Shown: piece after piece, positions 15,470 through 29,544 of the stretch
Layout of the letters: every line of letters starts with the position of its first letter
Position numbering within the stretch: the stretch's first letter is position 1
Assembly (NCBI GenBank): GCA_913050185.1
Contig: CAJXBA010000011.1
Span: 1 to 35,023 of the forward strand
Reading direction: 5' to 3'
DNA length: 35,023 bases
Source: an uncultured Pelagibacteraceae bacterium
GTDB taxonomy: Bacteria > Pseudomonadota > Alphaproteobacteria > Pelagibacterales > Pelagibacteraceae
Made by a program: the position numbers and the translations under genes
The notes under the pieces: generated by a model
Told to the model about the DNA's origin: nothing
The model's database searches: none
Seen by the model: the letters and a program-made list of their open reading frames with translations, nothing else

Positions 15470-16273
15470 TCAATTATTAAATTTTGAAATTCTATCCATT
15501 TCTTTTAATTCGACCTCTAACTTATCTAGCTCCTCTCCTCCTGCCATCATGCTCAATAATTTTTCACGAGATAGATCTTTTTTAGGGTAAGTTCCCATAC
15601 TTTTTCCTCTATTTAAAATTGTAAAGCGATCCCCAACGGGATATGCATGATGAACATTATGTGTAATTAAAATTACACCCAAGCCTTCTGAAGCTGCTTT
15701 TACTATGTATTTAAGTACCACTGAAGCTTGATGTACTCCTAATGCAGAGGTTGGTTCATCGAGAATTAAAACTTTTGCCCCAAAATAAATTGCCCTTGAT
15801 ATTGCCAAACATTGCCTTTCACCACCTGACATAGTTCCAACCGCTTGAGATGGATCTCTGACATCAATTCCAATTTGACCCATTCTTTCTGCAGCAACAG
15901 CATTTGCTTTCTCAATATCAAAAACTTTAAAAAGACCAAAACCCTTCATTGGTTCTCTTCCCATAAAAAAATTTCTAGTAACGCTCATTAATGAAACTAG
16001 AGCAAGATCCTGATAAACTGTTGCAATACCCAAATCCAAAGCATCTCTGGGAGAGTCGAATGTTGTTTTTTTTCCTTCAACAATAATTTCTCCTTCGTTG
16101 GGTTTGTGAACACCTGATAAAGTTTTTATTAATGTAGATTTGCCTGCACCATTATCGCCGAGGAGACACATGATTTCTCCTTTTTTAACATGCATCGTCA
16201 CATTTTTTAGAGCAATCACTGAACCAAAAAATTTACTGATATTGTTGAATTCTACAATTGTGTCTGTGTTCAT
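15470..16273 (-). CDS. ABC transporter ATP-binding protein, sugar (CUT2) type, single ATPase domain
   Basis: A 267-residue ATPase shows Walker [11 protein letters not shown]-loop TVYQDLALV, signature MSGGERQ, Walker [11 protein letters not shown] and the switch histidine [12 protein letters not shown]2 ATPases such as RbsA usually carry two ATPase domains in about 500 residues. This one has a single domain, as in FrcA-type fructose systems, so it would work as a homodimer. It overlaps the permease gene by 1 bp (stop-start TAATG). The C-terminal segment [16 protein letters not shown] is short and charged. It energises uptake of a sugar or cyclitol. Confidence 0.88.
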
Positions 16274-17391
16274 TATTTATTTTCCGTTACTCTTCTTCTT
16301 ACAAAATTATTAAAAATAACTGCAATTAACATCATCGCTCCTAAAAATACTTTAAACCAATCAGTATCCACATCAGTATAATAAATTCCCATAGAAACCG
16401 TTCCAAAAATTAGAGCTCCAAACGCAGCACCAATAGCTGATCCATAACCTCCTGTTAATAAACATCCTCCAACAACAGCAGCAACTATTGCTTCTAGTTC
16501 TTTTAAAAATCCTCTCATTGTATCCGCAGACCCTGCGTCAAGAACCTGAACACATGCATAAATGGTTGCGCATACTGCCGTTCCAATAAATAAACTGATT
16601 TTCACTCTTGCAACTGGGACTCCAACATTCCTCGCTCCTAATTTGTCGCCACCTGAAGCAAAAATCCAATTTCCGTATCTTGTTTTCATTAAGATCCAAG
16701 TTGCAAAAATGGTAAGGCCAATCCACCAAATAACTGAAGTTGGAACTCCGGTTGCCAAGGGAGTTCCGTCTTGTCTTAAAGCAATTAATCCTAATGAGCC
16801 CAACCAAACAAACAGCCCGGAAAATACATCAGCTGAAAATATCCATGCTATAGGATCGTTTTCGATTAAAACTCTTAATCCCGGAACTTGTGTTCTTCCG
16901 GTAATTAATCTCGTTAATGCCAAAGTAGCTCCTCTTAAAATAAAAAGCATAGCTAGAGTAACTATAAAAGAAGGTAATCCAGTTCTAACCACCAAAATTC
17001 CATTTGCATAACCAATTAAAACAGCCATAGAAAAAGCAAAAAGTATGCTAGACCATAATGGCCACCCCCAATAAATTGCGGGTATTGCTATGCATATTCC
17101 CGCAAAGCCAATCATGGATCCTACTGATAAATCAAATTCTCCTCCTATCATTAACATGGCCGCTCCTATTGCGATAATTCCAAGGTTAGATGATACTTCT
17201 AAAAAGTTAAGTGTACCGTAGGCACTAAACATACCGCTATCGCCAGCAATAATTCCAAAAAAAATGAAGACTAATATGGATCCACCCAACGCTCCAAGTT
17301 CTGGTCTATTTAATAATTTTTTTAATTTGGAAACTCTTCTAAGTCTTTCGTCTTGGGACTTTCTGTCAATACTTTGAGATTTTGTAGACAC
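16273..17391 (-). CDS. ABC transporter permease, sugar (RbsC/FrcC/IatP-like)
   Basis: The protein of 372 residues has a polar N-terminus and about nine to ten hydrophobic segments typical of CUT2 permeases. Recognisable stretches are [20 protein letters not shown] (first half), [33 protein letters not shown] and [20 protein letters not shown]. The GEFDLSVGS motif is a hallmark of this family. Together with the ATPase downstream and the binding protein upstream it forms one importer. An intrinsic terminator lies between the binding-protein gene and this one, so it should be expressed below the binding protein. Confidence 0.88.
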
Positions 17392-17412
17392 CGTTTTTAT
17401 TATAGCTTAATT

Positions 17413-17446
17413 AAAAAAAAAGGCCCGCAATAAAATGCGGGCCTTT
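17413..17446 (-). terminator. Intrinsic terminator/attenuator between binding-protein and permease genes
   Basis: On the minus strand an 11-bp perfect stem (446-436 with 429-419, offset 17000; arms AAAGGCCCGCA and TGCGGGCCTTT) encloses a 6-nt loop and runs into a U-rich tract (complement of the A run 17413-17421). It lies 12 nt past the binding-protein stop and 28 nt before the permease start. Partial read-through here would give the usual excess of binding protein over permease and ATPase. Confidence 0.88.
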
Positions 17447-17458
17447 AAATACTATATT

Positions 17459-18379
17459 TTATCTATAACCTTGTGCTGCCCACTTAATTACTTTGCTAGC
17501 ATTATCAGGAGTTACGAAACCTGGGCCAGTCATTACGACTCCAGCAGGCATTGTTCCCCATCTAATATACTGAGCAAAAATAGCTATTGGTAAGTAACCT
17601 TGAAGATATTGTTGTTGATCAATCAAGAACTCTACTTTTCCAGCAGCTGCAGCTTTAAGCATATCAGGTGACATGTCGAATGTACCTAATCTTATTTTTC
17701 CAACTTTACCAGCTGCTTCTAAAGCTTTAAGAGCTGCTTCACCAGAAAGACCAGCGCCTAAAGTTAAGATGGTATCAACACCACCTAATTTTGCAGCAAC
17801 TGCTTTTTCTATTTCAGTTACATCATTTGAAGTTCCAAGTATTTCTACTGGACCACCAAAACCTTTTTTGAAACCAGCGCATCTACGGTCCAAAGCAACG
17901 TTACCAACTTCATGGTTAACGCAAAGAGCTTTTTTTCCGCCAGCAGCTTTCATTTTTTGTCCGCCACCAACTCCAGCTTCAAATTCTGTTTGACCTACGT
18001 GCGCACTTATACCTAAAGAAGCAAAATCGTCTGAACCAGAGTTCATGGAAATTACTGGTATTCCCGCAGCGATAGCTGCTTTTACTGACTTACCTAATGC
18101 AGCAGCATCAGGAAGTGTAATTACAATGCCTTTTGGTTTTTGTGATACAGCATTGTCAATTAACTTAGCCATTTCAACCATGTCGAAAGTGCCAGGAGCA
18201 GTATACTTGCAAGATATTTTCATATCTTTACATGCTGAATCTACTCCGTTCTTTGCAACAGACCAGAAAGGGTCATTAGCTTGTCCGTGTGAAACAACGA
18301 TCACATCAATAGCAAATGCTGCCACCGACATCATTGTCCAACTTACAATAGCCAATATGGATAAATATATTTTTCTCAT
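17459..18379 (-). CDS. Periplasmic sugar/cyclitol-binding protein (RbsB-like)
   Basis: The 306-residue protein starts with a Sec signal peptide (MRKIYLSILA, hydrophobic to about residue 20, cleavage near AAFA-ID) and belongs to the periplasmic-binding type I/peripla_BP_4 family. Typical marks are VVSHGQANDPFWSVAKNGVD, AKLIDNAVSQKPKGIVITLP, GIPVISMNSGSDD, GTFDMSPDMLKA and FLIDQQQYLQGYLPI, which contacts sugar. A clear GAGGGAA ribosome site precedes the ATG. It is the first gene of the transporter operon and lies next to iolG, so myo-inositol is a candidate ligand (as for IbpA of Caulobacter). Fructose or ribose cannot be ruled out. Confidence 0.85.
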   Translation of the reverse strand: MRKIYLSILAIVSWTMMSVAAFAIDVIVVSHGQANDPFWSVAKNGVDSACKDMKISCKYTAPGTFDMVEMAKLIDNAVSQKPKGIVITLPDAAALGKSVKAAIAAGIPVISMNSGSDDFASLGISAHVGQTEFEAGVGGGQKMKAAGGKKALCVNHEVGNVALDRRCAGFKKGFGGPVEILGTSNDVTEIEKAVAAKLGGVDTILTLGAGLSGEAALKALEAAGKVGKIRLGTFDMSPDMLKAAAAGKVEFLIDQQQYLQGYLPIAIFAQYIRWGTMPAGVVMTGPGFVTPDNASKVIKWAAQGYR

Positions 18380-18498: not shown

Positions 18499-19500
18499 TT
18501 AGAAACTGATCTTGATCAATTTTTTTAAATGTAAAGATTTGTATGCGGCGTTTGCAATAATAATTGCTCGTCTTCCATCCTCAAATATTGCACGAGGCGT
18601 TTTTTTTCTTTCAATATAGTTAATCAGATCATTTAACTGTAATTTATAAGCTTCATCATATCTATCTATAAAAAAATTTAACAAAGGTCTCTTAATTGAA
18701 GTTTTGGATCCTAAAAATTTTTCGGAGTTATTATCTCTTTTGTTACCAGAGATCATCATGCCCTTGCTCCCAAAAATCTCTACTCTTTGATCATAACCAT
18801 AAGAGCAATGTCTTGAGTTATTAATTGCACAAATAACACCTTTCTTTGACTTTAGTAAACACATTGCAAGTTCATAATCTTTTATTTTTTTAAATTTTGC
18901 ATCAGGTAAATTAACAGCAGATGTAAATATTTCTTTAATTTCGTCTTTGATCAAATAAAATCTCAGTAAATCAAAATCATGTATCATCATATCTTTAAAG
19001 ATGCCTCCGGAAGTTTTTAAATAAGGCAACGAAGGTGGAGCTGGATCTCTGCTGGTTATTATAATTTTCTCTAGTTTTCCAATTTCACCATTTTCTATAG
19101 ATTTTTTTAGCGAGTAGTGACCTGGATCATATCTTCTATTAAAACCAAGTTGAATTTTTGGTTTATATTTTTTTATTATTTTTTTGCATTTATTGATTTT
19201 ATCAATATTTAAATCTAAAGGTTTTTCACAAAAAACAGTTTTTCCATGTTTTGTTGATTCAATTATATAATTGATATGAGATGAGGCAGGGGTTGAAATA
19301 AAAATCACATCGATGTTTTTATCATTATATGCAATGTTTGTTTTGTTAATTGGAAAAGATTTAAATTTTTTTGCAATTTTTATAGTTAAATTTGGATCAA
19401 TATCAAAAACATATTTTAGTGAACATCTATTATTTAATAATATATTTTTTGCGTGCATTTCGCCAATTCTACCCAGACCAAAAAGTGCTATATTTATCAT
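18499..19500 (-). CDS. iolG: Inositol 2-dehydrogenase-like Gfo/Idh/MocA oxidoreductase
   Basis: The 333-residue protein has an N-terminal Rossmann fold (ALFGLGRIGEMHAKNI) and the family dinucleotide motif CEKPLDLN. IolG-like marks follow: QLGFNRRYDPGHYSLKKSI, the catalytic region GGIFKDMMIHDFDLLRFYL (Lys of CEKP plus Asp and His here), and YGYDQRVEIFGSKGMM. It would oxidise myo-inositol to 2-keto-myo-inositol (scyllo-inosose). It diverges from iolE across 72 bp and lies upstream of the transporter operon on the same strand, separated from it by the operator-bearing gap. Lysine and isoleucine richness reflects AT-rich coding. Confidence 0.75.
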   Translation of the reverse strand: MINIALFGLGRIGEMHAKNILLNNRCSLKYVFDIDPNLTIKIAKKFKSFPINKTNIAYNDKNIDVIFISTPASSHINYIIESTKHGKTVFCEKPLDLNIDKINKCKKIIKKYKPKIQLGFNRRYDPGHYSLKKSIENGEIGKLEKIIITSRDPAPPSLPYLKTSGGIFKDMMIHDFDLLRFYLIKDEIKEIFTSAVNLPDAKFKKIKDYELAMCLLKSKKGVICAINNSRHCSYGYDQRVEIFGSKGMMISGNKRDNNSEKFLGSKTSIKRPLLNFFIDRYDEAYKLQLNDLINYIERKKTPRAIFEDGRRAIIIANAAYKSLHLKKLIKISF

Positions 19501-19572
19501 TTGTATTTTGTTTCTTTTTTATTACTTGAAGATATTTTCTAATCAATTAATATCCTAACAAAAAAAAACAAA

Positions 19573-20472
19573 ATGTCAGTAAAATTAGGTGTGGCCCCTA
19601 TAGCTTGGAGCAATGATGATATGACAGAGCTAGGAGGTAATACATCATTAGAACAATGTATGGCTGAAGCTAGCCAAGCAGGATATATAGGAATAGAGCA
19701 TGGTGGTAAATTTCCTAAAAAATCATCAGAATTACTGCCAAAATTAAATGAATTCAATTTACAGTTATGTTCAGGCTGGTATGGGGCAAATCTAAGAAAA
19801 AATTCAGTAGAAGAAGAAAAACAAGCAATTCAAGAACAACTTAAATTATTTAAAGATTGTAAAGCTCCTTGTTTTGTTTTTGCTGAAGTTTCAGATTCAA
19901 TTCAAGGTGATTCAAATAGAAAATTATCTACAAGACCACAAATGCAAAATGACGAATGGAAAAATTATTGCTCAAAAATATCTGAACTAGGAAAATATTT
20001 AGAAGATCAAGGAATGCCTCTTGGTTATCATCATCATATGGGAACTGTTATTGAGTCCCAAAAAGATACTGAGAGATTATTGGATAATACTAACGATTGT
20101 GTAAAATTAACTTTGGATACAGGTCATATGTTGTTTGCTCAAGGAGACTCAAAAAATATTTTGAGTGATTATAGTGAAAGATTAATTCATATGCATTGTA
20201 AAGATATTAGAAAAAATGTGCTTGAAAACTCTCTTAAACAAGATTTAAGTTTTAGAGGAGCTTTCTTAGAAGGAGTATTTACTGTTCCGGGAGATGGTTG
20301 CATAGACTACAAGTCATTATTTGATATTTTAAAACAAAAAAATTATTCTGGCTGGTTGGTAGTTGAAGCAGAGCAAGATCCAAAAAAATCAAATCCTTTT
20401 GAATATGCAAAAAAAGGATATAAATATCTTAGCGAAACCTTATTATCTTGTAACGTTGATATTATAAGGTAA
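19573..20472 (+). CDS. iolE: Inosose dehydratase (2-keto-myo-inositol dehydratase)
   Basis: The 299-residue protein is a xylose-isomerase-like TIM barrel with the IolE N-terminus LGVAPIAWSNDDMTELGGNT and later GYIGIEHGGKFP, GYHHHMGTVIES, LTLDTGHMLFAQGD, LIHMHCKDIR, FTVPGDGCIDY and WLVVEAEQDP. The His, Asp and Glu residues in these blocks make up the metal site. IolE dehydrates scyllo-inosose to the trihydroxycyclohexane-dione that IolD hydrolyses, so it links the neighbouring iolG to iolD. The gene stands alone on the plus strand between two minus-strand operons, with its own upstream region of 72 bp shared with iolG. Confidence 0.88.
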   Translation: MSVKLGVAPIAWSNDDMTELGGNTSLEQCMAEASQAGYIGIEHGGKFPKKSSELLPKLNEFNLQLCSGWYGANLRKNSVEEEKQAIQEQLKLFKDCKAPCFVFAEVSDSIQGDSNRKLSTRPQMQNDEWKNYCSKISELGKYLEDQGMPLGYHHHMGTVIESQKDTERLLDNTNDCVKLTLDTGHMLFAQGDSKNILSDYSERLIHMHCKDIRKNVLENSLKQDLSFRGAFLEGVFTVPGDGCIDYKSLFDILKQKNYSGWLVVEAEQDPKKSNPFEYAKKGYKYLSETLLSCNVDIIR

Positions 20473-20475
20473 AGC

Positions 20476-20988
20476 TTATCTGTAAATAGAAGTTAGTTCA
20501 TTGTTTCCTGCCGCAACACAGGGCGATTTAAAACAAGTTCCAACTAACCATTCTGAACCTGGTTCAGACAAAAAATTTGAGGCTGTAACAAAGATAACAC
20601 CCATTTCAGTTGATTGACCTGCTTGCCCTTCTGCCTGCAATCTTGGATCGGATGTCGATTTGATTGATGGTGAATTTATTGAGTACGGATTTTTTAAATT
20701 TAAATTTTTTATTACATAATTAATTACATTCGTAGTAATCCATTCACCTTTACAAGGATCTCCCCATTTAGTATTTGAATTTTCTTCTGCCTTATCACAA
20801 TTATTAATTTCAGAATTAATTAATTCAATAACTTGCTTGTGATTATTACGAACGGCCTCAACTTTTTCTTCCACACCAGATCTACTAGATAAAGTCCAAA
20901 GTAACATAAATATTACATATACTGTGGACAGTACCACCAGTAATTCAAGTAAACCAAAATTTTTAAATCTTAACAAAATTCCATTCAT
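20476..20988 (-). CDS. Pilin-like/pseudopilin-like secreted-domain protein in a catabolic operon
   Basis: The 170 residues begin with a short polar leader (MNGILLRFKN), then FGLLELLVVLSTVYVIFMLL (11-30), which resembles the type IV pilin N-terminal helix: Phe at +1 and Glu15 at +5. The residue before the cut is Asn10, not the Gly, Ala or Ser that prepilin peptidases need. The C-terminal 130 residues are soluble with four cysteines (NNCDKAEE, GDPCKGEWITT, GTCFKSPCVAAG) that could form two disulfides in the periplasm. The start overlaps the stop of the hydroxyacid dehydrogenase gene by 4 bp (ATGA), so it is translationally coupled to a sugar-catabolic operon. Function unknown. Confidence 0.6.
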   Translation of the reverse strand: MNGILLRFKNFGLLELLVVLSTVYVIFMLLWTLSSRSGVEEKVEAVRNNHKQVIELINSEINNCDKAEENSNTKWGDPCKGEWITTNVINYVIKNLNLKNPYSINSPSIKSTSDPRLQAEGQAGQSTEMGVIFVTASNFLSEPGSEWLVGTCFKSPCVAAGNNELTSIYR

Positions 20989-21944
20989 AATTTTACAATC
21001 ATTGATTTGTCCAATTTTCCATCAAAAAAATCAATTATATTTTGTATTGTATCTACTCCCATTCTCTCTGTACATTCTTCTGTAAATGTTGATGTGTGAG
21101 GACTTAAAAATACTTTTTTATTTTTTAAAAGTGGATTATTAGAATCCGGAGGCTCTTTCGCAAAAACATCTAAACCTGCTCCCAAAATCATATTTTTGTT
21201 TAGTGCTTCATTCAAATCTAATTCATTAATAACCGTGCCTCGTGATGTATTAATTAATATCGCGCTTTTTTTCATGGAACTCAAAACTTTAAGATTTATT
21301 AAATTTTTTGTTTCATCGGTTGATGGTAAATGAAATGAAAGATAATCCATATCTCTAACATTTTTTGAAAAATCGTTAATTTTTTTTCCACCAAACCTTG
21401 TGATTGTTTCTTCATCTACATAAGGATCATATACAAAAACATTCATGTCAAAACCTTTACACTTTTTTATTAGATTTTTACCAATCCTTCCAAATCCTGC
21501 TATAAGTATATTTTTATTCCACAGTTCTTTAGTTAGTTGTAAATCATTTCTTTTTGAAAAATTTCCATCTCTTACACATTTGTCATACATTCCAACACCT
21601 CTTGAAATGCTCAACATCATAAAAAACACATGTTCTGCAACTGAGACGGCATTTGCTTTTGCTGTAATGGCAAGGGTAATATTTTTTTCCTTAGTGGTTT
21701 TAAGATCAACATTATCGTAGCCAACGCCATGTCTTGAAATTATTTTTAGTTTCTCAGCTGATTCAATCAATTCTTTATCGAGTTTAAAAACTCTAAGTGA
21801 AACTGCATCACAATCTTTTAATTTATTTTTTAAAAAATTGACCTCAAGATTCTCTACGATTTCATAGGTAAAATCTTGCCTTTTTTTCAAAAGTTCAATA
21901 CCAGAATTATGAATTTTTTCGATTATTAAAACTTTTTTCATCAA
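20985..21944 (-). CDS. D-isomer-specific 2-hydroxyacid dehydrogenase
   Basis: The 319-residue enzyme shows the NAD(P) Rossmann motif ILIAGFGRIGKNLIKKCKGF, then VYDPY. The catalytic set is Arg in LINTSRGTVINELDL, Glu in GLDVFAKEPPDSNNPLL and His in VFLSPHTSTFTEEC. Such enzymes interconvert 2-keto acids and D-2-hydroxyacids (glyoxylate/hydroxypyruvate reductases, phosphoglycerate dehydrogenase). The length is that of hydroxypyruvate-reductase-like members without an ACT domain. It lies in a minus-strand operon with an aldolase and an aldehyde dehydrogenase, 12 bp from the aldolase. The specific acid is unknown. Confidence 0.85.
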   Translation of the reverse strand: MMKKVLIIEKIHNSGIELLKKRQDFTYEIVENLEVNFLKNKLKDCDAVSLRVFKLDKELIESAEKLKIISRHGVGYDNVDLKTTKEKNITLAITAKANAVSVAEHVFFMMLSISRGVGMYDKCVRDGNFSKRNDLQLTKELWNKNILIAGFGRIGKNLIKKCKGFDMNVFVYDPYVDEETITRFGGKKINDFSKNVRDMDYLSFHLPSTDETKNLINLKVLSSMKKSAILINTSRGTVINELDLNEALNKNMILGAGLDVFAKEPPDSNNPLLKNKKVFLSPHTSTFTEECTERMGVDTIQNIIDFFDGKLDKSMIVKL

Positions 21945-21956
21945 TTGCTTCTAAAA

Positions 21957-22748
21957 CTAATATGCTTTTGACTCTTCTCTACTTTTAATTTTTTTGAGTT
22001 TTTCTACGACTGATTTTGCTCCTACTGATATGTATCTTTGATCGGAGCCAACAGTAACCATTCGAAAACCCATTTCAATCATTTTCATTGCATACTCCGG
22101 CGTAGCGTTATGTATGCCGGCGAGAATTTTGTTTTTCTTTGCATGTTTTAATATATTTTCAATTGCAGAAAATGTTGGAGAACTTTTCTCTTTATCAAAA
22201 CCGGGGTCGGTTCCAACCGCTAGGCTTAAATCTGCTGGTCCTATATAAATGCCGTCTAAACCCGGAGTACTCATTATTTTGTCCAAATTATTTAATGCCT
22301 CACTAGTTTCTATCATTGCCCATTTTAATATTTCGTTATCTGCGTGCTTAGCGTAATCTGGTCCGCCGTATAATAATCCTCTTATTGGACCAAAACTTCT
22401 ATATCCCTTTGGTGGATACAAACAAGCTTGAACAAATTTTTCAGCTTGCTCTCTATTATTTATCATGGGACAAATGACTCCGTAGCTACCCGCGTCCAAA
22501 ATTTTCATTATTTGGCCTGGATCATTCCAATTAACCCTTACCATAGGGACAACTTCTGTTGTGGAAATTGCCTGGAGCATTTGCAAAGCGTTTGGGTAAT
22601 CAATGACACCATGCTGCATATCTATAGTTAAAGAATCCCAGCCTTGGTGTGCCATAACTTCTGCGGAAAAGGAACTTGGAATTTGCAGCCATCCATTAAT
22701 AATGGTTTGTCCGTCAGAAAAAATTTTTTTTAATCTATTCTTTCTCAT
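21957..22748 (-). CDS. HpcH/HpaI-family 2-keto-acid aldolase
   Basis: The 263-residue protein is a class II pyruvate aldolase-like TIM barrel. Visible are LTIDMQHGVIDYP (the DxxHG base region), VPMVRVNWNDPGQIMKILDAGSYGVICPMI, KWAMIETSEALNNLD (metal Glu), GIYIGPADLSLAVG (metal Asp) and VTVGSDQRYI. Relatives cleave 4-hydroxy-2-oxoheptanedioate, 2-keto-3-deoxy-rhamnonate or 5-keto-4-deoxy-glucarate, giving pyruvate and an aldehyde. The aldehyde dehydrogenase upstream and dehydrogenase downstream would handle the products. Substrate not assignable. Confidence 0.85.
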   Translation of the reverse strand: MRKNRLKKIFSDGQTIINGWLQIPSSFSAEVMAHQGWDSLTIDMQHGVIDYPNALQMLQAISTTEVVPMVRVNWNDPGQIMKILDAGSYGVICPMINNREQAEKFVQACLYPPKGYRSFGPIRGLLYGGPDYAKHADNEILKWAMIETSEALNNLDKIMSTPGLDGIYIGPADLSLAVGTDPGFDKEKSSPTFSAIENILKHAKKNKILAGIHNATPEYAMKMIEMGFRMVTVGSDQRYISVGAKSVVEKLKKIKSREESKAY

Positions 22749-22755
22749 TTAGAAA

Positions 22756-24198
22756 TTAACTAGTAATTCCTAAGTGAGTATATTTGATATTAAGGTAATC
22801 TTTAATACCCATTGTACCACCTTCTCTACCATAACCAGTTTGTTTAATTCCTCCAAATGGAGCTTCAGCTACTGCCACTACAGGCGTGTTAACGGCTACA
22901 ACTCCTGTTTCCATTAACTCGGAAGTTTTGTGTGCTTTCTCCATTGAATTTGTATATATGTAGCTAGCTAAACCAAGTTCATGTTTATTGGATCTTTCTA
23001 TTACTTCGTCAAAATCTTTAAATGTAGTTATTGGAACTAACGGTCCGAAAGGTTCCTGTTTCATTATTGTAAAATCATCTGTTACATTATCGAAGACTGT
23101 AGGTTCGTAAAAATATCCTTTGTTAAAATCTGCCGGTTTTTTTCCTCCACATAATACTTTCGCTCCTTCCTTTTTTGTTTTTTCAACAAGTTCTTCAATT
23201 TCATTTAATCTTTTTTTTGTAGTCATTGGTCCAAGTTGAACATTCTCATCTAGTCCATTGCCAATTTTTAATTTTATAGTTTTTTCTACAAATAATTTTG
23301 TAAAAGCATCTTTTTTATTTTCATGAATATAAAATCTACTTGGAGATATGCAGACTTGGCCACTATTCCTAAATTTTGCAGTAATAGCCATATCGACAAC
23401 CTTTTTAATGTCCACATCATCAAAAACTATAAAAGGTGAATGACCGCTCAATTCCATAGTAACTCTTTGAACTTTGTCAGCAGCCTGTTTTAAAATTAGC
23501 TTACCAACTCTTGTTGATCCAGTGATCGAAACTTTTTTTACTATATCAGATGAGATTAATTGAGATGAAATTGCTGCTGGATCTCCCGAAAGTAAGTTTA
23601 CAACTCCAGGCGGAACGCCAGCTTCTTTAATTATGTCCATCATTTCCATCACACATCCCGGTGTAATTACATCAGGTTTACAAATAACTGAACATCCTGC
23701 TGCTAGAGCAGTTGAAATTTTCCTTGAGGCCAAAACAATTGGAAAATTCCACGGCACTAACGCAGCAACAACACCGACGGGTTGGTAATAAACATGAACT
23801 CTTGTGTTTTCAAATCTACTTTCAACAGTTTGTCCGTAAATTCTTTTTGTTTCTTCAGCGTTCCATTCAAAAATATCAGCCGCACCACTTATTTCACCGC
23901 GTGCTTCTGCCAAGGGTTTGCCAACTTCTAGAGTGAGCCACTTGGCTAAAACTTCACTTTTTTTTCTCATTAAATCTGCGATTTTTCTAATTACATATGA
24001 TCTTTGCCAGGGAGGTGTATTCCTCCAAACTGCAAAACCTTTTTCAGCAGATTTCAGTGCTTTTTCAACATCTGCTGGTGTTGCCTTAGATGCCTTTCCT
24101 ATCACTTCTTCTGTTGCCGGGTTAATCACCTCGTAAGTTTCTCTTTTTTCTGAAGGCTGCCATTTACCATCAATGAATTGACCAAATTTACTGTACAT
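22756..24198 (-). CDS. NAD(P)-dependent aldehyde dehydrogenase
   Basis: The 480-residue enzyme is a full-length ALDH. Motifs are PWNFPIVLASRKISTALAAG (NAD site), VSITGSTRVGK, the general base Glu in VTMELSGHSPFIVFDD and the nucleophile Cys in FRNSGQVCISPSRFYIH, followed by KQEPFGPLVPITTF and EAPFGGIKQTGYGREGG. The pattern is closest to succinate- or ketoglutarate-semialdehyde-type dehydrogenases; it lacks the features of CoA-dependent methylmalonate-semialdehyde dehydrogenase (IolA) that I would look for. First gene of the minus-strand operon, divergent from iolD across 64 bp. It has no obvious ribosome site. Confidence 0.87.
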   Translation of the reverse strand: MYSKFGQFIDGKWQPSEKRETYEVINPATEEVIGKASKATPADVEKALKSAEKGFAVWRNTPPWQRSYVIRKIADLMRKKSEVLAKWLTLEVGKPLAEARGEISGAADIFEWNAEETKRIYGQTVESRFENTRVHVYYQPVGVVAALVPWNFPIVLASRKISTALAAGCSVICKPDVITPGCVMEMMDIIKEAGVPPGVVNLLSGDPAAISSQLISSDIVKKVSITGSTRVGKLILKQAADKVQRVTMELSGHSPFIVFDDVDIKKVVDMAITAKFRNSGQVCISPSRFYIHENKKDAFTKLFVEKTIKLKIGNGLDENVQLGPMTTKKRLNEIEELVEKTKKEGAKVLCGGKKPADFNKGYFYEPTVFDNVTDDFTIMKQEPFGPLVPITTFKDFDEVIERSNKHELGLASYIYTNSMEKAHKTSELMETGVVAVNTPVVAVAEAPFGGIKQTGYGREGGTMGIKDYLNIKYTHLGITS

Positions 24199-24262
24199 TT
24201 TTAATATTTAATGTTGATATAAAGAATATTTTTTTTTAATTTTTTAGAATTATAACTGAAAG

Positions 24263-26107
24263 ATGAAGAAAATAAAGCTAACTTGCGCTTATGCAATCGT
24301 AAAACACTTAATATCTCAAAAGATATTAATAGATGGCAAAAAAGAAGCCTTATTTGCTGGAGCCTTTGGTATTTTTGGACATGGAAATGTTGCTTGTCTT
24401 GGTCAGGCTCTACAAGAAAATCAAAAGGAACTACCAACCTGGAGAGGTCATCATGAACAAAACATGGCCTTAACAGGTATAGCTTACGCAAGGGCAAAAA
24501 GAAGAAAACAAATTTTCGTTGCAACGAGCTCTGTTGGACCAGGATCAACAAATATGGTTACAGCAGCTGCCGTAGCAATGAGCAACAGACTACCGATATT
24601 ATTTTTACCTGGAGATACATATGCAAATAGAATGCCCGACCCAGTATTACAACAAGTGGAACACTTTAATAATCCAGGAATTACCCAAAATGATGCTTTT
24701 AAAGCTGTTACAAAATATTTCGACAGAATAACAAGACCGGAACAGATTCTTCAAACACTTCCTCAGGCGATTCAAATTATGTTAGATCCAGCTGATTGTG
24801 GTCCTGTTTGTCTTTCCTTGTCCCAAGATGTACAGGGAGAAGTTTTTGATTATCCTGAAGAATTTTTTAAAGAGAAAAATCATGCAATAAGAAGACCAAG
24901 ACCTGATGATCACCAAATTAAACTTGCGGCAGAAAAAATTAAAAGAACAAAATGCCCAATTATTATATCTGGTGGTGGAGTTTTTTATTCAGATGCTATG
25001 GATGAGCTTGGTAATTTTGCTACAAAACATAATATTCCTGTTACGCAAACAGTAATGGGATATTCAACAATGAAAAAAGATCATCCTTATTTTGTAGGCC
25101 CTATAGGAGGATTAGGAGGAAAAGCGGCTAATAATTTAGCCAAACAAACTGACATGGCTATCGCGGTAGGAACAAAATTAGGTGATTTCACAACAGGATC
25201 TTGGGCCAATTTTGAAAATTCAACCTTCCAATTAGTTTCTATTAACGTTGCAAGATTTGATGCAAATAAACATTTGGCACAATCGGTTATTGGAGATGCA
25301 AAAGTTTCTCTGAAAGAATTGTCTTTAGCATTGGGAAATTGGAAAGCTCCTGATAACTGGTATAAAAAATCTCGGACTGAATTAAAAGCATGGAATGAAT
25401 ATATCGATAAAGAAAGTGGTCCAACAAATCAAAAATTGCCAAGTTACGCACATACTGTTGGTGCAATTTATAGAAAGGCAAGCCCTCATGATATTGCCGT
25501 TACTGCTGCAGGAGGTCTGGTTGGAGAAAGCGTACAAATTTGGAGACCAAAAGAATTAAACACTTATGAAACTGAATGGGGTTTTAGTTGCATGGGTTAT
25601 GAAATTTCTGGAGCATTAGGAATAAAGATGGCAAATCCAGATAAAGAGGTAATTTCTTTTGTAGGTGACGGTTCTTATCTTTTACAAAATTCTGATATTT
25701 ACAGTTCTGTTATAACTGACCACAAATTAATAATTATTGTCTGTGATAATGGTGGACATGCTGTGATTAATAGGCTGCAATTATTTAAAGGTGGAAAAGA
25801 ATTTAATTGTCAATTTAACAGTTCAAAAAATACAAAATTAGTTAATGTAAATTTTGCAAAACATGCTGAAAGTTTGGGTGCTACTGGTGAAGAGGTAGAC
25901 TCAATTGCTGATTTAGAAAAAGCTTTTGAAAGAGCAAAAAAATCAAAAAAAACTTACGTTATTTCAATTAAAACACATGCCTATCAATGGTTAGAAGGAT
26001 CGGCCTACTGGGAAAGTCCAACCCTAGAACTGCCCACTACAAAAGAAAACAAAAAAGCTTTAGAAGAACACCGTGTTGGCAAATCCAAGCAAAGACAGGG
26101 CGTATAA
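24263..26107 (+). CDS. iolD: 3D-(3,5/4)-trihydroxycyclohexane-1,2-dione hydrolase
   Basis: The 614-residue thiamine-diphosphate enzyme carries the IolD blocks LFAGAFGIFGHGNVACLGQAL, WRGHHEQNMALTGIAYA (cofactor-activating Glu), FVATSSVGPGSTNMVTAAAVA and PGDTYANRMPDPVLQQVEHF. The C-terminal TPP-binding stretch is FVGDGSYLLQNSDIYSSVI followed by CDNGGHAVINRLQ. IolD opens the inositol-derived ring to 5-deoxy-D-glucuronate. It begins the plus-strand operon that continues into a dehydrogenase, a PfkB kinase and an inositol-phosphate-type transferase. Start at 24263 is the first ATG, with a GAAAG ribosome site. IolB, the next enzyme of the pathway, is not in the window. Confidence 0.93.
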   Translation: MKKIKLTCAYAIVKHLISQKILIDGKKEALFAGAFGIFGHGNVACLGQALQENQKELPTWRGHHEQNMALTGIAYARAKRRKQIFVATSSVGPGSTNMVTAAAVAMSNRLPILFLPGDTYANRMPDPVLQQVEHFNNPGITQNDAFKAVTKYFDRITRPEQILQTLPQAIQIMLDPADCGPVCLSLSQDVQGEVFDYPEEFFKEKNHAIRRPRPDDHQIKLAAEKIKRTKCPIIISGGGVFYSDAMDELGNFATKHNIPVTQTVMGYSTMKKDHPYFVGPIGGLGGKAANNLAKQTDMAIAVGTKLGDFTTGSWANFENSTFQLVSINVARFDANKHLAQSVIGDAKVSLKELSLALGNWKAPDNWYKKSRTELKAWNEYIDKESGPTNQKLPSYAHTVGAIYRKASPHDIAVTAAGGLVGESVQIWRPKELNTYETEWGFSCMGYEISGALGIKMANPDKEVISFVGDGSYLLQNSDIYSSVITDHKLIIIVCDNGGHAVINRLQLFKGGKEFNCQFNSSKNTKLVNVNFAKHAESLGATGEEVDSIADLEKAFERAKKSKKTYVISIKTHAYQWLEGSAYWESPTLELPTTKENKKALEEHRVGKSKQRQGV

Positions 26108-26116
26108 AAATTCTAC

Positions 26117-27289
26117 ATGAACAAAGTTTATAAAGTTGGTCTCATAGGTTGTGGACATATAAATGAAACATACTTTAGAGCTCATGAATATTTTAATAAT
26201 TTTAAAATTATAAAATGTGCTGATGTCAAAGAAAGCGCTGCTAAGAACTGTGCAAATGTTTACAATATTGAATCTGTTTCGGTTGATGATTTGCTAGTTG
26301 ATAATCAAATTGAAGTTGTTTTAAACCTTACTACTCCTCAATCACACTATGAAGTAACAAAAAAGGCGTTGCTCGCAGGTAAACATTCCTACTGTGAAAA
26401 ACCTCTGGCTACAAAATTTGAAAATGGACAAGAGTTGGTAAATCTTGCAAAAGAAAAGAATCTTTATTTAGGCAATGCTCCTGATACTTTTTTAGGAGCT
26501 GGAAACCAAAAATCACGACAATTAATTGATTCTGGATTGGTAGGAGATATAAAACTTGGTAACGCCATTTTTGCTTTTCCTGGAGTGCAGTCTTATCATC
26601 CAGATCCAGAACCCTGGTTTCAAAAAGATGGAGGAGGTCCAGTATTTGACATGGGACCTTATTATTTGACCGCTTTGGTAAATCTTCTCGGTCCAGCAAA
26701 GCACGTTCAGGGAAGAGAACTAACAATTTCTGAATTTAGAGAAATTGGAATTGGACCTAAAAAAGGAAAAAAAATTAAAGTTGAATCACCAACTACCTAT
26801 ATGGCAACAATTCAATTTCACAATAGTGCTATCATTCAAATTACCTTATCATTTGATGTAATTAATCATCAAAGAAATCACATAGAACTTTATGGGACAA
26901 AAGGCTCAATTATTGTACCAGATCCTAATATGTTTGGAGGATCAGTATTTATATCTGCTAATCCAGGACCAGAAGGTAAATGGGAAGAATATCAAACAGA
27001 AAATATGAAATTGGGAAAAATTAATATTAAAAATCCTAGTGTGCGATTAAATGAATCTCCCACCAACGCAAATTACAGAGGAATTGGTTTGTCAGAAATG
27101 CTTTATTGTATCGAAAATAAAAAAAAACATAGATGTAGCGGTGAATTATCTTTGCATGTTTTGGATATAATCGATTCTACTATGCAAGCGGCTATTTCTA
27201 AAACTCATAAAGAAATAAGAACAACTTGTAAAAAACCTGAATTTTTTCCAGAAGAGGAAATAAAAAAAATATTTTATTATGGAGATTAA
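26117..27289 (+). CDS. Gfo/Idh/MocA-family dehydrogenase
   Basis: The 390-residue protein has VGLIGCGHINETYFRAHEYF (NAD fold), TTPQSHYEVTKKALLAGKHS followed by YCEKPLA (catalytic Lys), then GNAPDTFLGAGNQKSRQLID and DGGGPVFDMGPYYLTALVNLLG at the substrate-side position, where Asp and Tyr replace the Asp/His pair of IolG. It is about 55 residues longer than the iolG product here and differs in the active-site block, so it is not a duplicate. It lies 9 bp after iolD and 12 bp before the kinase. It probably oxidises or reduces a cyclitol or sugar. Substrate unknown. Confidence 0.82.
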   Translation: MNKVYKVGLIGCGHINETYFRAHEYFNNFKIIKCADVKESAAKNCANVYNIESVSVDDLLVDNQIEVVLNLTTPQSHYEVTKKALLAGKHSYCEKPLATKFENGQELVNLAKEKNLYLGNAPDTFLGAGNQKSRQLIDSGLVGDIKLGNAIFAFPGVQSYHPDPEPWFQKDGGGPVFDMGPYYLTALVNLLGPAKHVQGRELTISEFREIGIGPKKGKKIKVESPTTYMATIQFHNSAIIQITLSFDVINHQRNHIELYGTKGSIIVPDPNMFGGSVFISANPGPEGKWEEYQTENMKLGKINIKNPSVRLNESPTNANYRGIGLSEMLYCIENKKKHRCSGELSLHVLDIIDSTMQAAISKTHKEIRTTCKKPEFFPEEEIKKIFYYGD

Positions 27290-27301
27290 GATTGTTAGAT
27301 T

Positions 27302-28201
27302 ATGAATTCTTTTGATGTATGTGTTGTAGGTCAAATTGTTAAAGATTATAACTTTCTTCCATTAAAAAAAGAGAAGGGGTTTGTAAAATCACCTGGAGGA
27401 ACAGCATTCTATTCTACTCATGCTTATCATTTGCTTGGTTTAAAAACAGCCGTTCTTACAAGTTTTAATAATAATGATATTTTCAGTTTAACTCCAGACT
27501 TTGGAAATGGAAAAATATCAATTTTTAACAATGTAAATGCCACCACAACAGAATTTAGAAACTTCTATAGAAAAAATAAATTAAATTTTCGATTTCAAGA
27601 AGCAATTTTCAACAACAGGCCTGTGAGTGGTAAGCTAGTAAAAGCAAAAATTTATCATTTCGGACCTCTAATTTTAAACGACATAGACGTCAAACTCTAT
27701 CAAGCAGTTAAAAAACTAAATGGATTAAAAGTCTTAGATATTCAAGGATTGAATAGAAGTATTAGAAAAAAAAAGATTATTGAAAAAAGAAATACTAAAA
27801 TAAAAAAATTCTTGAAAAATTTTAATATTTTAAAATGTGATGCCAAAGAATTGCACTTAATTAAAAATGCTAAAGATAAATATAGAATAATTAATTACCT
27901 CTTTGATTTAGGTTTATCTGAAGTAATTGTAACTAAGGGCTTTTTTGGTTCAACAATTTATTCTAAATCAGAAGGGAAAATTAATATTCCGTCATTCATA
28001 CCAACTAAAATTATTGATTCGACCGGTTGTGGTGATACTTATACTGCAATCTACAGTTATGCTAGATTAAAAAAATATTCCGTCTATCATTCAGGATTAT
28101 TAGCTAGTGCAGGATCAGGTATGAAAACAGAGAAGACCGGACCTTTATATAACTCTTTTAAAATGATTAAAAAAAGAGTTGAAACTATATGTAAAATTTA
28201 A
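27302..28201 (+). CDS. PfkB-family carbohydrate/cyclitol kinase
   Basis: The 299 residues show PfkB features: VCVVGQIVKDYNFLP, the substrate-side SPGGTAFYSTHAYHLLGLK (di-Gly hinge) and the C-terminal anion-hole motif IDSTGCGDTYTAIYSYAR with the catalytic Asp. The position is between a dehydrogenase and an enzyme built like inositol-1-phosphate cytidylyltransferase. The PfkB family includes archaeal myo-inositol kinases making 1D-myo-inositol 3-phosphate, so inositol kinase is the reading I prefer. A 5-dehydro-2-deoxygluconokinase (IolC) role, given iolD upstream, is the alternative. The high lysine and asparagine content is unusual even here. Confidence 0.72.
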   Translation: MNSFDVCVVGQIVKDYNFLPLKKEKGFVKSPGGTAFYSTHAYHLLGLKTAVLTSFNNNDIFSLTPDFGNGKISIFNNVNATTTEFRNFYRKNKLNFRFQEAIFNNRPVSGKLVKAKIYHFGPLILNDIDVKLYQAVKKLNGLKVLDIQGLNRSIRKKKIIEKRNTKIKKFLKNFNILKCDAKELHLIKNAKDKYRIINYLFDLGLSEVIVTKGFFGSTIYSKSEGKINIPSFIPTKIIDSTGCGDTYTAIYSYARLKKYSVYHSGLLASAGSGMKTEKTGPLYNSFKMIKKRVETICKI

Positions 28202-28206
28202 AAAAA

Positions 28207-29544
28207 ATGAAAAATAAAAATGTAGACACTGCAGTTATTTTAGCTGCTGGAAGAGGCGAAAGAATATCAAATACTGCCGGGTTTGTTGCAAAACCATTAA
28301 TTAAAATTTTTGATGTAAGCTTGATTGAAAGATCAATTAAAAATTTAATTAATAATTTAAATATAAAAAAAATATATATTGTTACCGGGTTTAATCATGA
28401 GGAAATAAACAATCATTTAGCTAAATTAATAAATAAACTTTCTATAAATATAGAGGTTGTGTTTGCAAAAGATTGGGAGAAAGGTAATGGTGCAAGTTTT
28501 TTAACCATTTTGGACAAAATTAACAATCAACAATTTTACTTGTTGATGGCAGATCACCTATTCAATGATGAATTTTATAAAACTATCTTAAAATATAAAA
28601 TTAATAATAAATCCTACTTAATTATATCCAGAACTTTATCCTCCTCAAACGATTTTAATGATGCCACTAAAGTTAAAGTTGTCGAGGACAAAATAAGTGA
28701 CATTGGAAAATCTATAAAAGACAGTAATGGTTTTGACACAGGTCTTTTCATATTAAGTTCCAATGAATTTAATAATGTTAATAAATTATCAGTTAGAAAA
28801 AAACTTTCTTTAACTGAGGTTATTCAAGAATTAGTTCAACAGAATAAATTATATTTTATTGAAGTTCCAGAAGATAGTTGGTTCGATATTGATACAAATG
28901 AGGATTTGTCCAACGCAAAAAATTATTTATTAATTAATTCAAGTTCAAAAATTAACGATGGTCCTATATCTAAGTATATAAATCGACCAATATCTAAATG
29001 GATAACATCTAAAATAACAGATTATCCATTAACACCTAATCAAATTTCCATTGCTGTATTTTTTATCTCTGTTTTTTCAGGTTTAATAATTTCAATAGAA
29101 GGTTATTTTTTTCTGTTGTTGGGTGCTTTGTTGGCGCAATTATCCTCTATACTGGATGGTTGCGATGGTGAGATTGCAAGACTGAAGCTTTTAGAAAGCA
29201 AGTTCGGTGGATGGTTTGATCGGGTCCTAGACCGCTATAGTGATTTATTTATATTTACAGGGTTAACATTTCACACATATTTTATTCATAAAACATTAAC
29301 TGTATTTTTGATTGGTTTTATTGCGGTTGGTGGAAAAATAATTTTAAGCTACACTGCTTATGTATATGATTCTATAGCCTCTACTCGTAACAGTATACGC
29401 ATTGGGAGAGATTTAATAATATTTATTATATTGATAGGTGCGGTGCTCAATATTCCATATATTACATTGGTGGTTTTAGCATTTATTATGAACGCAGAGG
29501 TCTGCAAGAGATTATGGATACTAAAAAATAAACTAGATTATTAA
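28207..29544 (+). CDS. Fused nucleotidyltransferase/CDP-alcohol phosphatidyltransferase (IPCT/DIPPS-like)
   Basis: Residues about 1-240 form a sugar-nucleotidyltransferase-like domain: AVILAAGRGERIS (8-20), KPLIKIFD (29-36), LLMADHLFND (112-121, metal Asp116) and SWFDIDTNEDL (224-234). Residues about 255-445 are a membrane CDP-alcohol phosphotransferase with D317xxD320G321xxA324R325 x8 G334xxxD338xxxD342, complete for the family, plus several hydrophobic helices. The two-domain order is that of the bifunctional inositol-1-phosphate cytidylyltransferase/di-myo-inositol-phosphate-phosphate synthase known in hyperthermophiles. In context with a PfkB kinase and iol genes, CDP-inositol formation followed by transfer to an alcohol acceptor is likely. 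The acceptor (inositol phosphate or a lipid) is not known. Starts 5 bp after the kinase gene; its end overlaps the next gene tail to tail by 4 bp. Confidence 0.78.
   Translation: MKNKNVDTAVILAAGRGERISNTAGFVAKPLIKIFDVSLIERSIKNLINNLNIKKIYIVTGFNHEEINNHLAKLINKLSINIEVVFAKDWEKGNGASFLTILDKINNQQFYLLMADHLFNDEFYKTILKYKINNKSYLIISRTLSSSNDFNDATKVKVVEDKISDIGKSIKDSNGFDTGLFILSSNEFNNVNKLSVRKKLSLTEVIQELVQQNKLYFIEVPEDSWFDIDTNEDLSNAKNYLLINSSSKINDGPISKYINRPISKWITSKITDYPLTPNQISIAVFFISVFSGLIISIEGYFFLLLGALLAQLSSILDGCDGEIARLKLLESKFGGWFDRVLDRYSDLFIFTGLTFHTYFIHKTLTVFLIGFIAVGGKIILSYTAYVYDSIASTRNSIRIGRDLIIFIILIGAVLNIPYITLVVLAFIMNAEVCKRLWILKNKLDY

Follow-up and report, generated by a model that had tools for sequence, protein, structure and literature searches.

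The locus described here raises the question of why an operon for the breakdown of myo-inositol in a marine bacterium should end in two genes that appear to build a product from it. The joining of CDP-inositol to a second small molecule is familiar chiefly from hyperthermophiles, in which it protects against heat, and SAR11 ranks among the most abundant groups of marine bacteria. The window, by which we mean the whole stretch of 35,023 nucleotides analyzed (contig CAJXBA010000011.1, assembly GCA_913050185.1), belongs to a Pelagibacteraceae (SAR11) genome, labeled G000, the assembly of which has 87 contigs and totals 1.24 Mb. The iolD operon of the window closes, on its 3' side, with a PfkB-family kinase gene and, after it, a gene for a fused enzyme that resembles the combination of a CTP:inositol-phosphate cytidylyltransferase (IPCT) with a di-myo-inositol-phosphate phosphate synthase (DIPPS). 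We consider, with a probability of roughly 0.6, that these two genes form an inositol-salvage branch leading to a phosphodiester solute.

In the proposed branch, the PfkB kinase would phosphorylate imported myo-inositol, with ATP as the probable donor, and the N-terminal domain of the fused enzyme would couple the inositol phosphate to CTP, yielding CDP-inositol. The membrane domain would then move phosphoinositol onto a soluble acceptor, giving a phosphodiester of the di-myo-inositol-phosphate (DIP) type with a probable role as a compatible solute. Related SAR11 have a de novo source, myo-inositol-phosphate synthase (MIPS), together with the fused enzyme; in the window strain, which lacks MIPS, the kinase would supply inositol phosphate from the pool that iolG, iolE, and iolD degrade. 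The identities of the genes, their operon, the missing MIPS, the exchange of genes at the site, and the residue changes described below are read from sequence and gene context. We infer uptake, phosphorylation, and activation from the protein families involved, as well as the substrates, product, and physiological role; salvage up to CDP-inositol, in place of de novo synthesis, is supported by sequence and gene context. The genes and domains concerned are as follows.

24263-26107, plus strand: iolD, first gene of the operon (TIGR04377, 787.6 bits; cut-off 715).
26117-27289, plus strand: Gfo/Idh/MocA oxidoreductase by Pfam, probably catabolic, with weak similarity to IolG (61.7 bits; cut-off 355); found at the same position in a second genome bin, G003.
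27302-28201, plus strand: PfkB-family kinase, probable myo-inositol kinase (best PDB match TM0415, and residue mapping).
28207-29544, plus strand: fused CTP:inositol-phosphate cytidylyltransferase/CDP-inositol phosphotransferase of IPCT/DIPPS type, 445 aa (NF041135, 4mnd).
28228-28926, plus strand: nucleotidyltransferase (IPCT-like) domain of the fused protein, residues ~8-240 (Pfam PF00483; AfIPCT 2xme).
28957-29526, plus strand: CDP-alcohol phosphotransferase (CDP-AP) membrane domain, residues ~251-440 (D317/D320/D338/D342; I404, V386, K377).

The four genes form a run with gaps of 9, 12, and 5 bp, which agrees with the preliminary description of this locus, in which the fused gene lay 5 bp behind the kinase and in the same operon as iolD. 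That description located the branch at 26117-29544; the open reading frames are as it gave them, and position 26117 is the start of the Gfo/Idh gene, the kinase starting only at 27302. The G+C content of iolD is 35.6% versus 27-28% in the kinase and fused genes, a contrast that is in line with different origins of the two halves of the operon.

Regarding the fused protein, Pfam placed an NTP_transferase domain at residues 9-240 and a CDP-OH_P_transf domain at residues 276-419, and the complete CDP-AP signature (D1xxD2GxxAR...GxxxD3xxxD4) was found as D317, D320, D338, and D342, in accordance with the two-part architecture proposed earlier. The motifs common to IPCT (LAAGxGxR, KPL, GNGxS, DH, DTG, and W-x-D-[IV]-DT) were present in the alignment. 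The IPCT/DIPPS family model NF041135 matched residues 8-440 at 278.6 bits (E 8.8e-83), far above chance and under its curated cut-off, to which we return below. In a structure search with the single sequence, the fused protein matched the Archaeoglobus fulgidus IPCT-DIPPS (4mnd, 5.6e-49) and AF2299 (1e-34), and its nucleotidyltransferase part was nearest to IPCT (AfIPCT 2xme, 8e-21; 4jd0, 6e-17), with the next sugar nucleotidyltransferase at ~1e-4. An identity as a choline, sugar, or phosphatidylinositol-phosphate (PIP) synthase was ruled out by these scores, as a result of which the N-terminal domain falls with IPCT, as had been expected, and not with choline or sugar enzymes. A profile of the membrane domain scored AF2299 at 288 bits, AfDIPPS at 236, and the lipid-making PIP synthases at 43-46, a gap that is inflated by the presence of AF2299 and AfDIPPS as rows of the profile; the single-sequence search gave the same order.

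Genome contigs scanned with one protein sequence yielded no relative, and an alignment search found three from SAR11 together with distant ones; viral contigs, scanned likewise, contained none. The SAR11 relatives, all Pelagibacteraceae, are those of the single cell AG-464-P07, the bin SRR3967558_bin.3, and RIS_SAG_19, the last of which probably came from under the Ross Ice Shelf, judged by its isolate name alone; the single cells sequenced from that site came from dark water at close to -2 C (PMC8748734). When eleven fused enzymes were placed in a tree, those of SAR11 formed one well-supported clade; the root and the position of AfDIPPS are unreliable due to long branches.

The closest solved structure to the kinase was that of TM0415 from Thermotoga maritima (E 5e-10), a pyrophosphate (PPi)-using myo-inositol kinase (PMC5931981). 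The inositol contacts D11, N78, Q141, and R145 of TM0415 and its catalytic D234 correspond to D15, N87, Q148, R152, and D245 of the kinase, and the DxQGxxR inositol motif is present in all three SAR11 kinases. The TM0415 PPi residues R229, R232, and M266 are replaced by S, C, and T, by which a PPi-dependent PfkB kinase (signature K171, R229, R232, F221, and M266) was ruled out, and the missing signature makes ATP the likelier phosphate donor. A different role for the kinase is that of the missing IolC (5-dehydro-2-deoxygluconokinase) of inositol catabolism, placed next to the fused enzyme by chance, and its position within the iolD operon and a genome search of G000, which found no IolB and no better IolC candidate, are what would be expected in that case. 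Its scores against TIGR04382 were only 48.3 and 39.9 bits, with a cut-off of 300, and in AG-464-P07, where iolD was not found, the kinase has MIPS and the fused enzyme as its neighbors; considering also the TM0415 motif shared by the SAR11 kinases, we regard an IolC as quite improbable, and the assignment made at the outset, apart from IolC, is retained. An inositol-kinase relative with the same DxQGxxR motif was also observed in another alphaproteobacterium (G312, L189 5931-6866), on a contig separate from that of its own fused enzyme. The neighborhoods of the kinase relatives in G312, G497, and G524, when inspected by eye, contained no recognizable inositol genes.

A MIPS gene, already reported missing from the window, was not found in the G000 assembly by either a family model or a SAR11 MIPS protein search; ~96% of the genome was also read in stretches. 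One contig of G000 (C30, L124) runs unbroken from a BKACE gene to a thioesterase gene without MIPS, at the site where contigs of G003 hold it, and the contiguous, empty site favors salvage over de novo synthesis, as was suggested in the preliminary description. In a comparison with AG-464-P07, the following gene marks the shared site.

22756-24198, minus strand: aldehyde dehydrogenase (ALDH), 86% identical as a protein to that at the same place in AG-464-P07.

In AG-464-P07, ALDH is followed consecutively by MIPS, the kinase, and the fused enzyme; the matching site of the window reads ALDH, iolD, Gfo/Idh, kinase, and fused enzyme. Because the kinase and fused genes align at 90% DNA identity and the ALDH flank at 80%, iolD and the Gfo/Idh gene occupy the place taken by MIPS in AG-464-P07. 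The order from ALDH through iolD and Gfo/Idh to the kinase was confirmed in G003, an independent assembly.

Carriers are rare among the approximately 294-297 genomes of Pelagibacteraceae: four have the fused enzyme, four have MIPS, and three have the kinase; the fused enzyme and MIPS occurred together in three genomes (hypergeometric 4e-6, a value that ignores relatedness and serves as a guide only). In G022 and G020, the fused enzyme is followed by MIPS and the kinase is lacking. Three other alphaproteobacteria (G665, G312, and G523) carry MIPS, a gene of the inositol monophosphatase (IMPase) family, and the fused enzyme together, sets that apparently constitute a complete DIP pathway.

L048 4932-8328, L049 5716-9559, and L050 7916-11274: MIPS, IMPase-family phosphatase, and IPCT/DIPPS sets of the three alphaproteobacteria.

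MIPS also adjoins the fused enzyme in G722. The pairing of the fused enzyme with MIPS in relatives, joined in AG-464-P07 by the kinase, supports inositol as the substrate. As a separate observation, G722 has, behind its two genes, a further one that by its appearance may encode a CDP-alcohol phosphotransferase (L085 6728-7402). In a comparison of AG-464-P07 and G022 (loci L012 7077-10511 and L013 483-3182), MIPS is 93% identical, and the fused enzyme, which is 90% alike between the window and AG-464-P07, is in both of these only ~68% identical to that of G022; therefore, the two genes have had different histories or have evolved at very different rates.

Several observations weigh against the salvage branch. 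The score of the fused protein against NF041135 is under the curated cut-off of 580 bits, which was set for Thermococcales and which other alphaproteobacterial fused proteins also miss, and the AlphaFold models of the kinase and fused enzyme are of low confidence (pLDDT 39 and 35; few homologues). The G000 assembly is 94% complete with 3.5% contamination, and G003, a bin with 5% contamination, has both the operon of the window and MIPS contigs; some strains may keep both sources, the kinase and MIPS. No phosphatase for phosphorylated DIP was found in the operon of the window or in any SAR11 cassette, and the three IMPase-family genes of G000, all outside the operon, do not look orthologous to the operonic IMPase of the other alphaproteobacteria. 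Furthermore, the loss of two basic residues, described next, may make the transfer to inositol phosphate, the defining step of DIPPS, doubtful.

In the PIP synthase of Mycobacterium tuberculosis (MtPIPS), R155, R195, S132, and R94 are located at the phosphate group of the inositol phosphate that serves as acceptor, R137 lines the pocket, and R155 mutants are severely impaired (PMC4634129, PMC6506517). We compared these positions, in MtPIPS numbering, among two PIP synthases, AF2299, and the eleven fused enzymes. Only the four SAR11 proteins lack Arg at the R155 position (I, I, T, and T; I404 in the window), and only these four have V at the R137 position (V386 in the window), where all others have Lys or Arg. 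The equivalents of R94, R152, and R195 are retained wherever aligned, and that of S132 in all but AF2299. The SAR11 enzymes thus do not hold the full set for an inositol-phosphate acceptor (R94, S132, R152, R155, R195, and a basic R137). All four have Lys at position 377, approximately one helical turn (four residues) before S381, where small residues are found elsewhere. The acceptor is the least certain step of the branch because its pocket differs from that of every characterized relative: the loss of charge may indicate an acceptor other than inositol phosphate, and the new lysine could also mean that the same acceptor is held differently.

A specific version of the salvage branch is the strict DIP pathway, in which CDP-inositol and a second inositol phosphate give phosphorylated DIP, a general inositol monophosphatase removes the phosphate, and K377 re-wires the acceptor site for an unchanged substrate. 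Homology over the whole length, the MIPS and IMPase neighbors in other alphaproteobacteria, the retained R94, S132, R152, and R195 equivalents, a lysine in all four SAR11 proteins that could replace the lost charge, and the three IMPase-family genes of G000 are consistent with this version; considering the severe effect of R155 mutations in MtPIPS and the lack of a phosphatase gene in the SAR11 cassettes, we see it as a serious possibility with somewhat less than even odds. More tentatively, the SAR11 fused enzyme may have switched to an unphosphorylated small acceptor, perhaps free myo-inositol or glycerol, giving a phosphodiester solute from CDP-inositol in one step, without a phosphatase, and here wholly from scavenged inositol. 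The missing operonic phosphatase would fit a product without an additional phosphate group, although IMPase-family genes do exist elsewhere in G000.

The positive charges lost at the acceptor site, together with the membership of this membrane enzyme in the CDP-alcohol phosphotransferase family and the alteration of SAR11 lipids under phosphate stress (PMC8231724), may also be taken to mean that phosphoinositol is moved to a lipid, such as diacylglycerol, to give an inositol lipid. Lipid-acceptor CDP-APs typically carry three to four extra C-terminal helices, and six-helix CDP-APs take soluble acceptors (PMC4634129). The fused protein is without extra C-terminal transmembrane helices and ends at the same point as AF2299, and its matches to AF2299 (1e-34) and AfDIPPS (6e-49) contrast with those to lipid-making PIP synthases (7e-8 or weaker), which leaves an inositol lipid improbable. 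The six-helix architecture thus points to a soluble acceptor and a solute; of the two products originally put forward, a compatible solute or an inositol lipid, the former is favored and the latter disfavored, and our best guess is a soluble phosphodiester such as DIP.

The two lost residues and the rarity of the enzyme in the family might also be signs of a degraded or non-functional fused enzyme. Immediately after the kinase, at the end of contig C4 of G003 (L033 1-42), MKNKN is joined to AEVCKRL, namely, codons 1-5 of the fused gene to codons 430-436, which represents either a large deletion that keeps the reading frame or an artefact of assembly where the contig ends. Such a junction would suit a remnant; however, two lineages that are 68% identical have kept the catalytic motifs of each domain intact, their reading frames are uninterrupted, and all four proteins have the substitutions and K377 in common, as selection predicts, and hence we give a remnant very little credence.

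Genes assigned to the uptake and breakdown of inositol are also present in the window.

15470-18379, minus strand: sugar-type ABC transporter (ATPase, permease, and binding protein), probable inositol importer by a binding-protein family match.
18499-19500, minus strand: probable iolG, inositol 2-dehydrogenase (350.2 bits, just under the cut-off of 355).
19573-20472, plus strand: iolE, myo-inosose-2 dehydratase (TIGR04379, 397.4 bits; cut-off 290).

The binding protein scored 313 bits against the rhizopine (inosamine) family, with a cut-off of 420, and inositol is its probable cargo. Catabolism in this region (18499-27289) looks non-canonical, with iolG, iolE, and iolD present and no IolB or IolC found in the genome. 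Beside iolD are an HpcH/HpaI aldolase, a 2-hydroxyacid dehydrogenase, an aldehyde dehydrogenase, and a second Gfo/Idh enzyme, which may form an alternative lower route.

A rare salvage cassette for an inositol phosphodiester would give SAR11, often phosphorus-poor, a phosphorus-containing solute, would tie inositol catabolism to solute synthesis, and would extend to non-thermophiles what has been a classic marker of hot habitats. The swap at one site between MIPS and an arrangement of kinase plus catabolic genes also represents a clean comparative test of the substrate assignment of the enzyme family. DIP or its genes have already been reported in non-thermophilic deep-sea Thaumarchaeota (PMC8397731 and PMC7265257) and in SAR116 (PMC12262181), and because of these reports, a claim to the first occurrence in a non-thermophile fails; DIP synthesis is entered as "+/-" for SAR11 in one table (PMC6018831).

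In comparison with known systems, the SAR11 enzyme shares its domain order over the whole length, the catalytic motifs, and the CDP-AP signature with the IPCT/DIPPS of A. fulgidus (4mnd) and Thermococcales (NF041135), and differs from them in its non-thermophilic source, a kinase partner in a catabolic iol operon, a genome without MIPS, and an acceptor site that has replaced two basic residues and gained one lysine. The kinase belongs, like TM0415 (5ysp) and the MI3K of Thermococcus kodakarensis, to the PfkB (ribokinase) family and keeps the D, N, Q, and R contacts and the catalytic Asp of TM0415, from which it is distant in sequence and departs in lacking the two arginines that bind PPi (R229 and R232) and the occluding M266. 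The ipct/dipps of deep-sea and hadal Thaumarchaeota are likewise fused, are found in a non-thermophilic marine host, and have been linked to DIP as a proposed stress solute; these hosts are archaea, the hadal genome has an IMPase close by, and the portions of the two reports seen mention no inositol kinase or iol operon (PMC8397731, PMC7265257). The MIPS-IMPase-IPCT/DIPPS operons of G665, G312, and G523 encode a homologous fused enzyme, the membrane domain of which is 43-46% identical in two of them, and differ from the SAR11 locus in having a complete de novo DIP set with a phosphatase and in retaining the R155 and R137 equivalents. Against this background, the aspects that are new here are the presence of the fused enzyme in SAR11, an inositol kinase as its partner within an operon for catabolism, a genome that has lost MIPS, and the changes at the acceptor site.

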